NCBI RefSeq assembly: GCF_014196635.1
Contig: NZ_JACIEB010000009.1
Coordinates: forward strand, 62,001-126,000
DNA: 64,000 bases
Reading direction: 5' to 3'
Source: Sphingobium fontiphilum
GTDB lineage: Bacteria > Pseudomonadota > Alphaproteobacteria > Sphingomonadales > Sphingomonadaceae
Shown here: positions 2,993 to 44,249 of the stretch, in pieces
Position numbering within the stretch: position 1 is the first letter of the stretch
Layout: each line of letters starts with the position of its first letter
Program-made: the position numbers and the translations under genes
Notes under the pieces: generated by a model
Seen by the model: the letters and a program-made list of their open reading frames with translations, nothing else
Told to the model about the DNA's origin: nothing
Database searches by the model: none

Positions 2993-3129
2993 ACCCCCTT
3001 GATCGCCCGCCCCGCTTGCGCCACAACCAACGCAATCGGGGCAAGGCGACCCCCCGATCAGGCGTTCCCCGCCCAAGCGTCGCGGCTTGAATGACGGGGC
3101 GGCGCGGCTGTCCTGTGTCGGGGACGTGC

Positions 3130-11940: not shown

Positions 11941-12015
11941 TGGTGACCCCTACGGGAATCGAACCCGTGTTTCAGCCGTGAGAGGGCCGCGTCCTGACCG
12001 CTAGACGAAGGGGCC
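11941..12015 (-). tRNA. tRNA-Glu (CTC)
   Basis: Complete cloverleaf on the minus strand: acceptor GGCCCCT/AGGGGTC, D-arm containing TAGCGGTCAGGA, anticodon loop CTCTCAC with anticodon CTC, T-loop TTCGATT, discriminator A, and an encoded CCA at 11941-11943. Its 3' end abuts the integrase relic, so it is the likely attachment site of the former island. Confidence 0.96.
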
Positions 12016-12083: not shown

Positions 12084-12090
12084 GCCTGAC

Positions 12091-12123
12091 AAAAAACCAC
12101 CCCATGCGATTCGCATGGGGTGG
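12091..12123 (-). terminator. Strong rho-independent terminator
   Basis: Minus strand: a perfect 12-base-pair stem (CCACCCCATGCG with its complement, 12097-12123), a 3-base loop and six T residues (12096-12091). It ends the candidate small RNA and would also stop any read-through from the SapC gene before tRNA-Glu. Confidence 0.9.
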
Positions 12124-12201
12124 CCAGGGTTCAGGGAGGAGACGCCTCCACAAGGGAGGCATCCATATGGCTCACCCGAAAGGGGGACAGGTGCGCCATA
12201 T
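12091..12201 (-). ncRNA. Candidate trans-acting small RNA with anti-Shine-Dalgarno motifs
   Basis: About 110 nt, not annotated by similarity to any class I can name. From the predicted start near 12201 the RNA folds as follows: hairpin 1 (ATATGGC, 12195-12201, with GCCATAT, 12165-12171; inner CACC/GGTG; C-rich loop TGTCCCCCTTTC), hairpin 2 (GATGCCTCC with GGAGGCGTC, 12141-12164), a single-stranded TCTCCTCCCTGAACC linker (12124-12142), and a U-tailed terminator hairpin (12091-12123). The CUCCUCCC stretch can pair with ribosome-binding sites, as in several alphaproteobacterial Hfq-dependent RNAs that carry CCUCC loops. The alternative, a structured 3' UTR of the SapC gene, is less likely because a separate promoter precedes it. 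Confidence 0.55.
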
Positions 12202-12207
12202 ATGCTC

Positions 12208-12236
12208 AAGATAGGGCGAGAGACATTCCGTTGCAA
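12208..12236 (-). promoter_or_regulatory. Predicted promoter of the candidate small RNA
   Basis: Minus strand: -35 TTGCAA (12231-12236), exactly 17 bases, -10 TATCTT (12208-12213). It starts about 60 bases after the SapC stop codon and points to the structured region ending in the terminator at 12091. Confidence 0.55.
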
Positions 12237-12294
12237 GAGGGAACGGAAAATCTCTCCCCCAGACTTGATCGATGATGGACCAATCGGCCGCAGA

Positions 12295-13089
12295 TCAGGC
12301 TTCGGCCGGCGCAGGCTCAGTCGACACGATGGGGGCAATGGGGCCCTTGCCGAGTTGAACCTGACGCTCGAAAATCTCGCGAATCAGCTGGAGCGAAAAC
12401 AGGTGGGCGAACAGCAGCGGCAGCATGCCGTTCTGGTTGATCTTGCGCAGCTGGTCGCCACGAAGGTCGCGCAGCTTTTCTTCGTTGACCATGCGAAAAC
12501 CGCGATAGGTGAAGGGCTGTTCCAGACCGGGAGCCTGAATGGCGACTTCCCCGTCCATCAACAGATCCAGTTCCTTCAGATCCTTCATGAACTGGCCGGT
12601 GCGGGCCGCCGCCTGTTCAAAATCCTCACAGAATTTCAGGATGTTGGCGGTCACTTCAGTCGGCTTGCCATCATCGAACAGCTTGTTGCCCTCATCGAAC
12701 ACGCCGACGCTGGGCGTCGTCGGGTCGAAGCACAGCGACAATTCCTCGCCATCGGGGCGAAGCTTGGCCAGCATCCAGGGATAACGGCGGACATAGGCGG
12801 GGATATAAGTCGGCCCGGTCAGCCCGCCATTTTCATCCAGAAACACGTTGACGCCCTCATTAAGGCCCATCAGCGCCAGCGGCACCGGATCATTGCCAGC
12901 CGAAAAGATGATCGGCAGCATCCGCTGGGCCGCAGCAAATTCGTCGATCGTCAGCGGCACGGCGTGCTGCGTCGCCAGGTGCGGCGCGGCTTCGACTGAA
13001 CGCACGCTGTAATCGGCGTGATCGATGGTGCTGAGCGGCAACAGGTCATTGTAGAAGATGGGAAGCGATTGAGCGGGCGCGCTGGCCAT
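12295..13089 (-). CDS. SapC family protein
   Basis: 264 residues. The whole length matches the SapC-like family: LPIFYNDLLPLSTIDHADYS near the start, then VPLTIDEFAAAQRMLPIIF, LMGLNEGVNVFLDENG, a Tyr-rich YIPAYVRRYPW and the C-terminal FRMVNEEKLRDL. The family is named after a Campylobacter S-layer-linked protein, but its role in sphingomonads is not established; neighbours do not clarify it. Start placed at ATG 13089 (MASAPAQSLPIFY); two in-frame upstream ATGs would add non-conserved residues. A candidate small RNA and terminator follow. Confidence 0.85.
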   Translation of the reverse strand: MASAPAQSLPIFYNDLLPLSTIDHADYSVRSVEAAPHLATQHAVPLTIDEFAAAQRMLPIIFSAGNDPVPLALMGLNEGVNVFLDENGGLTGPTYIPAYVRRYPWMLAKLRPDGEELSLCFDPTTPSVGVFDEGNKLFDDGKPTEVTANILKFCEDFEQAAARTGQFMKDLKELDLLMDGEVAIQAPGLEQPFTYRGFRMVNEEKLRDLRGDQLRKINQNGMLPLLFAHLFSLQLIREIFERQVQLGKGPIAPIVSTEPAPAEA

Positions 13090-13208
13090 GATGTGTTTCC
13101 GTTCTGTCATGTTGGGGCGATGCGCCAGGGCCCACCACCGTTCCATTACTGCCCCAGCGACCTAATGACGTTGACCGGTGGAGGCAATGGTTTTGCGCCC
13201 TGCGATGG

Positions 13209-43637: not shown

Positions 43638-44249
43638 ATGAGCGAGCAGCTTACGCTGTCGGCCGAGGTTCGCGATCGGGCAGGCAAGGGAGCCTCCCGC
43701 GCTCTCCGCCGCGAGGGCCGCGTACCCGCCGTCATTTACGGTAATAATGAAGAACCCCAGTCGATCCACGTCGAAGAAAAGCTGCTGAACAAGCTGCTGG
43801 GCACTGGCCACTTCTTCAATTCGGTGATCATGGTCGAAGTCGACGGCGCGACCGTCCGCACCCTGCCCAAGGATGTCGCCTTCCACCCGGTGACCGATCG
43901 CCCGCTGCACGCCGATTTCCTGCGCGTTTCCGAACATGCGACCGTGCACGTCAACGTGCCCGTCCGCTTCGAGAACGAAGCCGCCTCGCCGGGCCTCAAG
44001 AAGGGCGGCGTGCTCAACATCGTTCGCCATGACGTCGAACTGATCGTCGACGCCGCCGAAATCCCCGACGATGTCGTGGTCGACCTCAAGGGCTTCGAAA
44101 TTGGCGATTCGATCCACATCAGCGCCGTGACCCTGCCCAAGGGCGCGAAGACCGCGATCGACGACCGCGACTTCACGCTGGCGACCATCGTTGCGCCCAA
44201 GGGCCTCAAGAGCGCCGAAGGCGACAGCGAAGCGTCGGCCGAAGGCTGA
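43638..44249 (+). CDS. rplY: 50S ribosomal protein L25/general stress protein Ctc
   Basis: 203-residue long form with two domains: the N-terminal 5S-rRNA-binding L25 domain ([35 protein letters not shown]) and the C-terminal TL5/Ctc domain ([35 protein letters not shown]). GGAG at 43627-43630 supports ATG 43638. It precedes pth in the common L25-pth order, with a terminator between. Confidence 0.97.

Follow-up and report, generated by a model that had tools for sequence, protein, structure and literature searches.

The small RNAs (sRNAs) that come closest to the locus described here belong to the alphaR8 lineage and its Rfam family RF00519 (suhB/MmgR). MmgR of Sinorhizobium has three stem-loops with an anti-Shine-Dalgarno motif in the first loop (PMC7143759, partial text). 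The same source describes AbcR1 and AbcR2 (alpha-r15) of Sinorhizobium as RNAs of 120 and 114 nt with three stem-loops, two CU-rich anti-Shine-Dalgarno motifs and Hfq binding; both share partial homology with SuhB RF00519, and AbcR2 is listed with RpoH1/2. In Caulobacter, SisA uses its core to repress a TonB-receptor mRNA at a site ahead of the start codon; in most species, N-formylglutamate amidohydrolase is the usual neighbor of alphaR8 genes (PMC12559287, partial text). An RpoH-linked sRNA is also known from Rhodobacter, namely, StsR (PMC8625941, partial text). Because RpoH-linked sRNAs (StsR and AbcR2) were already known, the novelty here would lie in the connection to alphaR8 and in the set of siblings. 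The part of the literature covered described no SapC-linked or RpoH-type alphaR8 RNA, and SapC, suhB and the core motifs were not found in the main texts of the Zymomonas sRNA papers.

The window, i.e., the whole stretch of 64,000 nucleotides of Sphingobium fontiphilum DNA that was analyzed, contains a predicted sRNA gene on the minus strand between a SapC gene and tRNA-Glu. SapC is transcribed from the same strand and lies about 90 nt away. We infer the existence of the transcript from the following features.

12091..12204, minus strand: sRNA gene of about 112 nt; the 5' end is predicted at about 12204-12202 from the -10 spacing alone, and the 3' end is at the U tract.
12295..13146, minus strand: SapC gene, the upstream neighbor (Pfam PF07277, 223.4 bits).
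11941..12015, minus strand: tRNA-Glu (CTC), the downstream neighbor within the genus, with a promoter-like TTGACG at 12083-12078.
12232..12237, minus strand: -35 element CTTGCA, RpoH-type (CTTGAA in most relatives).
12209..12215, minus strand: -10 element CCTATCT, the commonest form (32 of 138 upstream regions).
12164..12202, minus strand: hairpin 1, with 15 pairs in the genus alignment and 13 in the window's own minimum-energy fold.
12187-12179, minus strand: C-rich loop of hairpin 1, UCCCCCUUU.
12163-12141, minus strand: hairpin 2, GAUGCCUCC-CUUGU-GGAGGCGUC, with 9 pairs (10 in the window's own fold).
12126..12142, minus strand: core UCUCCUCCCUGAACCCU, mostly single-stranded, an anti-Shine-Dalgarno signature.
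12142-12133, minus strand: C-rich 10-mer UCUCCUCCCU inside the core.
12091..12125, minus strand: intrinsic terminator and U tract; the stem (12125-12095) has 14 pairs by scan and a loop of 3, and six U end at 12091.

The minimum free energy of the minus strand from 12204 to 12091 was -62.1, compared with a mean of -36 (SD, 3.1) for shuffled sequences (z = -8.42), and none of 200 shuffles reached it. Two terminator-like patterns were found in 2.5 kb, where 2.3 were expected; the surprise is the stem length and the conservation of the terminator, not the presence of a terminator-like pattern. For hairpin 2, RNAalifold offered an alternative GGAGG/CUCCC pairing, which was rejected, as hand pairing gave at least 9 pairs in 28 of the 30 genus loci. 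The other two loci had 8 pairs (L024) and 5 pairs (L021, whose correct register was missed by the loop limit of the script). The initial annotation had proposed an RNA of about 110 nt with two hairpins, an unpaired C-rich stretch and a long terminator with six U, and had pointed to Shine-Dalgarno complementarity in the first loop, in hairpin 2 and in the unpaired UCUCCUCCCU. All of these elements were located in the sequence, and their agreement exceeds chance both in the fold statistics and in the conservation and covariation observed in relatives.

By BLAST, the sRNA gene was detected in 35 of 37 genomes of the same genus, its own included, and in none of 24 genomes of other genera. Thirty of the 35 same-genus loci were fetched, all of which have SapC upstream and tRNA-Glu downstream and retain both UCUCCUCCCU and the C-rich loop. 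In the alignment of these loci, 97.9% of cells were paired, and 8 pairs (22 cells) carried double changes, which none of 500 shuffles equaled; for one of the five measures, further pair types, the observed value was reached by 43 of 500 shuffles. A loss of the hairpins and of UCUCCUCCCU at loci where the neighbors stay, which the initial annotation had named as the outcome contrary to its proposal, was thus looked for and not observed: SapC, tRNA-Glu and UCUCCUCCCU are kept at 30 of 30 loci, and the hairpins covary.

A covariance model, R1, was built from the 30 same-genus loci, the window gene among them. R1 matched 131 of 149 genomes of the family, representing 87 of 96 genera, with a single match in 129 of the 131, and gave no match in the remaining 18. 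In its own genome, the window gene was the one strong match (112.5 bits), by construction, since the gene is part of R1. A family alignment, A2, of 100 sequences (98 distinct) had 96.4% of cells paired, compared with 34.7 to 49.1% in slid controls. Double changes occurred in 871 cells (shuffled mean, 248; 0 of 500 shuffles) and in 31 of 37 pairs (shuffled mean, 26.9; reached by 2 of 500 shuffles); A2 was fitted to the model and so leans toward its structure, and cells count sequences, not events. Every pair of hairpin 1 (15 of 15, with 92.3% of cells paired) and of hairpin 2 (9 of 9, 98.6%) showed double changes, and 99.4% of terminator cells were paired. All 30 genus loci keep the sequence CCTCCCTGAACC, as do 28 of the 29 family loci that R1 detected. 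An exact 21-mer scan of named genomes gave at least 119 stretches, in Sphingomonas, Novosphingobium, Sphingobium and Erythrobacteraceae; 80 loci among the matches listed were analyzed. These were selected by an exact match to the core and a terminator arm, which are therefore conserved there by construction, whereas hairpins 1 and 2 are unbiased. Among 72,556 plasmid records, none matched the window RNA at an E value of ≤1e-3. An origin from a plasmid or phage was also considered for the sibling loci described below and was rejected: a sibling query matched two plasmid records over 29% of its length, at the terminator end, and no phage record.

In the wider family, the sRNA and usually SapC are kept, and tRNA-Glu is not. 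SapC was upstream in 28 of 29 further family loci, and the remaining locus has just 271 bases before the sRNA. Among the matches listed from named genomes, 70 of 80 family loci had SapC upstream on the same strand, 49 of them within 400 nt; the gap, measured from the end of the tblastn match, exceeded 400 nt in 21 and was about 3 kb in two. Of the 10 listed loci without SapC, five had little upstream sequence and five had more than 1.3 kb. A tRNA was present within 400 nt downstream in 4 of the 80 listed loci, every one from Sphingobium, and two diverged same-genus loci (L072 and L073) had no tRNA within the stretch examined. The SapC linkage thus looks old and the tRNA-Glu linkage recent, as SapC is usually kept across the family and the tRNA is confined to Sphingobium. 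One record titled Actinobacteria bacterium carried a sphingomonad sRNA next to SapC and is probably a misbinned contig. Elsewhere in the window, Rfam listed a chrB-b cis-regulatory RNA at 3036-3083 on the plus strand (38.1 bits; cut-off, 36.5), and ARAGORN reported an odd tRNA with an unresolved anticodon at 43914-44004 on the minus strand, which is absent from the Rfam listing.

At the curated threshold, Rfam listed nothing at the place of the sRNA, and the initial annotation had matched it to no named family. A permissive scan corrected this view: RF00519 matched over its full length at 12084..12167 on the minus strand with 36.5 bits (E = 5.7e-6), though below the gathering score of 41. The gathering score was not reached by any of 20 family loci, 8 of which were listed at an E value of ≤0.01 with 32.8 to 38.8 bits and 12 of which were unlisted. 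No alpha-r15 was listed in the permissive scan, and suhB was the best of its clan; one lower-scoring match of the same clan was omitted from the table, unnamed, so that the window RNA may still be akin to AbcR.

Outside the family, R1, although trained on the genus alone, matched 43 genomes of the order among 196 searched, and at 41 of the 43 its place overlapped an RF00519 match among those listed; the other two were in genomes whose RF00519 places ranked below the matches listed. This overlap points to common ancestry with the RF00519 loci, judged on short sequences and not from a tree. The out-of-family loci examined carry GUUUCCUCCCUGARCYUGGGCC or a near form and often have their own 5' hairpin in single-sequence folds. 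N-formylglutamate amidohydrolase was confirmed by Pfam as a neighbor at all three loci tested from other families, and further such neighbors were judged by eye. The window RNA has the alphaR8 layout of a hairpin, a single-stranded core and a Rho-independent terminator. However, the alphaR8 10-mer UUUCCUCCCU (PMC12559287) is absent from the window and from all 30 genus loci, which carry UCUCCUCCCU, and SapC adjoins the sRNA instead of the amidohydrolase; the exact 10-mer was found in 8 of 29 family loci detected by R1. Judged from homology and architecture, the window RNA is an alphaR8 descendant; because it misses the curated score, lacks the exact 10-mer and is not linked to the amidohydrolase, it represents a divergent variant rather than a member.

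Within the family, the over-threshold RF00519 copies examined form another branch, with the core AUCCUCUCCYAAAACU. Only 1 of 30 R1 places, chosen in genomes having rows among the RF00519 matches listed, coincided with a listed RF00519 match over the cut-off, and R1 at an E value of ≤1 missed this other branch except for one copy at 14.2 bits. The sRNA also suggests that a branch spanning the family is concealed by the RF00519 cut-off. The S. fontiphilum genome itself has four over-cut-off RF00519 copies (L032 to L035; contigs C4, C4, C5 and C1) with the common core AUCCUCUCCUAAAACU. Their upstream regions are alike, rich in TTGCA/TGCAA and without an RpoH-like promoter, a hint at one common regulator. 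Another set of alphaR8 loci (family f8: L040, L041, L047 and similar loci) has a conserved 5' hairpin holding CTTGGTGTAGG and no C-rich loop; this hairpin possibly has a different first-loop function.

The initial annotation had described a promoter of good quality. Its elements are present (TTGCAA at 12236-12231, 17 bases, TATCTT at 12213-12208), but as a sigma-70 site it is weak, scoring 8 of 12; when 2.5 kb were scanned with a threshold of 9 of 12, no site was listed, where 0.9 was expected. An RpoH-type reading fits better: CTTGCA-N16-CCTATCT scores 11 of 12 against the consensus CTTGAA-N15/16-CCTATNT, with the sixth -10 base left free, and its -35 element is one base off the consensus. 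The Sinorhizobium consensus is CTTGAA-N15-16-CCTATAT for RpoH1 and CTTGCC-N15-16-CCTATCT for RpoH2, and Sphingomonadales have rpoH1 only (PMC4843759, partial text). The window site is intermediate between the RpoH1 and RpoH2 consensus.

CTTGAA was found in 96 of 138 upstream regions, TTGACA in none and TTGAC in 2; the 138 regions hold repeats, and the counts for the 132 distinct ones are 92, 0 and 2, respectively. A score of at least 9 of 12 was reached by 134 of the 138 regions, compared with 35 of 690 mononucleotide shuffles. The spacer of the best site, ahead of a box like CCTATNT, was 16 in 112 regions, 15 in 25 and 14 in 1, under a scoring that favors 15 and 16 by half a point. The C before TTG was conserved in 125 regions and each C before TAT in 107. 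The tRNA-Glu next door offers a housekeeping-type contrast, with TTGAC between the sRNA and tRNA-Glu in 30 of 30 genus loci. Through the promoter statistics and this contrast, RpoH control of the sRNA is well supported at the level of sequence; sigma-70 was rejected as the best promoter reading on its score of 8, the lack of TTGACA and the tRNA-Glu contrast.

In a scan of heat shock genes, the first regular expression was too strict (2 of 25 loci), and a scored scan with mononucleotide shuffles was then applied to the same data. The hsp20 genes of the genomes examined have CTTGAA-N15/16 sites whose position hardly varies. As a marker of RpoH the motif is imperfect, because only 8 of 14 hsp20 and 7 of 11 groE loci had a site clearly above shuffles (≤7 of 200). 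The strict promoter pattern gave one site across the S. fontiphilum genome and one in the control. GroEL is encoded at positions 1-803 of the window; the region upstream of its operon, as seen in L226, contains CTTGACG-N-CCATAT and, after it, an inverted repeat (GGCACTC...GAGTGCTAA) that resembles CIRCE.

A weak R1 match in the S. fontiphilum genome (C2:98522-98603, 24.9 bits) led to sibling loci. Of 46 genomes, 22 contained related loci, with up to five matches each, and every one of the 22 belonged to the same genus; these counts include the SapC-linked gene itself, and short matches may be terminators only. Eleven dispersed siblings come from other genomes, and some of these siblings clearly represent the same locus in several species. 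Their promoters, with CTTGAA or ATTGAA, score 10 to 11 of 12 (0 to 3 of 200 shuffles), and their core is CCUCCCUGAACC or one near it. By eye, the siblings have a C-rich hairpin loop and a terminator. The sibling in the S. fontiphilum genome lacks an RpoH-type promoter (7 of 12; 165 of 200 shuffles). R1 matched all 12 sibling loci examined at an E value of ≤5e-4, and Rfam listed none of them at an E value of ≤0.05.

The window gene is probably a free-standing gene for an RpoH-driven, Hfq-assisted, trans-acting sRNA of about 112 nt of the alphaR8 lineage that masks Shine-Dalgarno sites. Under heat or protein-folding stress, RpoH would become active and transcribe the sRNA, Hfq would hold it by the U tail, and translation of several mRNAs would stop once their Shine-Dalgarno regions are paired with the core, CUCCUCCCUGAACC, and the loop of hairpin 1, CCCCCUUU. 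Masking of ribosome-binding sites is proposed because of the analogy with SisA of Caulobacter (PMC12559287, partial text). The exact pattern TTCAGGGAGG-N3-12-ATG occurred in 52 of 99 genomes, with 79 matches, of which at least 14 were the sRNA gene read backwards; the reversed-pattern control gave 51.

A wider reading is held more tentatively, at somewhat less than even confidence: an alphaR8 carbon regulation RNA may have been converted to an arm of the RpoH heat shock response, in which a single, usually SapC-linked copy bearing two C-rich anti-Shine-Dalgarno sites, joined in Sphingobium by dispersed siblings that share its core and heat shock promoter, lowers the translation of many mRNAs under protein-folding stress. 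If this is true, a carbon control RNA lineage has been rewired to the heat shock sigma factor. Biologists studying pollutant degradation by sphingomonads would gain a clear regulator to test, with the sRNA in 131 of 149 sampled family genomes.

The same sRNA could instead be under the housekeeping sigma factor and respond to growth rate or carbon rather than heat shock, like SuhB of Sphingopyxis or MmgR of Sinorhizobium. SuhB of Sphingopyxis granuli and MmgR do act in carbon/PHB control with Hfq (PMC6563040 and PMC7143759, partial texts), and TTGAAA-17-TATCTT is another possible reading of the site. We regard this as unlikely, since TTGACA and TTGAC are absent or nearly so from the sRNA upstream regions, yet TTGAC precedes tRNA-Glu at every genus locus, and since the C before TTG and the CC before TAT are conserved. 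A role as a sponge or decoy partner would make a G-rich regulatory RNA, not mRNAs, the main partner of the C-rich core, with either of the two capturing the other. Such a role has a parallel in Caulobacter, where alphaR8 RNAs pair with the sponge CrfA (PMC12559287, partial text). The core is also conserved past its anti-Shine-Dalgarno part (GAACC), more than Shine-Dalgarno pairing alone needs. No partner RNA is known, however, and this role is judged improbable.

The two remaining alternatives deny a separate sRNA gene. That the stretch is only the 3' untranslated region (UTR) and terminator of sapC would agree with its place after sapC in the window, but it is very improbable given the conserved promoter-like site of the sRNA itself, the long gaps at 21 of the 70 listed SapC loci and the eleven siblings elsewhere with the same promoter type. 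A short coding gene is hardly credible: an open reading frame of 153 codons with a TTG start does cross the stretch on the minus strand, but the changes in the stems are compensatory, and the loop of hairpin 2 differs among loci by insertions of one base.

The putative RpoH-driven sRNA of alphaR8 descent can be set beside several described systems. With MmgR of Sinorhizobium meliloti and RF00519, it shares the full-length match, the hairpin, the C-rich single-stranded core and the Rho-independent terminator. It differs from alphaR8/RF00519 in its score (36.5 bits versus a cut-off of 41), in the 10-mer UCUCCUCCCU found in the genus and in its SapC neighbor in place of N-formylglutamate amidohydrolase. 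It is also longer than MmgR (about 112 versus 77 nt), and its promoter is RpoH-type, whereas MmgR is listed with RpoD and RpoN (table of PMC7143759, partial text). SisA to SisD of Caulobacter crescentus are likewise alphaR8 siblings with an anti-Shine-Dalgarno core, SisA repressing the mRNA of a TonB-dependent receptor; the Caulobacter siblings have unrelated promoters (PMC12559287, partial text), whereas the window gene and the 11 sibling loci in relatives have one promoter type. AbcR1 and AbcR2 are similar to the window RNA in their length and layout and also in the class of promoter.

SuhB of Sphingopyxis granuli TFA is a sphingomonad RNA of 61 nt that is Hfq dependent and acts on a 5' UTR (PMC6563040, partial text). 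Because of its length, SuhB is more likely the counterpart of the four RF00519 copies with the AUCCUCUCCUAAAACU core in the S. fontiphilum genome. CcsR1 to CcsR4 of Rhodobacter and the cuckoo RNAs are also stress-linked alphaproteobacterial sRNAs and carry a loop motif of the CCUCCUCCC type. CcsR arises by processing of the ccaF1 3' UTR (PMC8625941, partial text), whereas the window RNA, which lies downstream of SapC, has a promoter-like site of its own.
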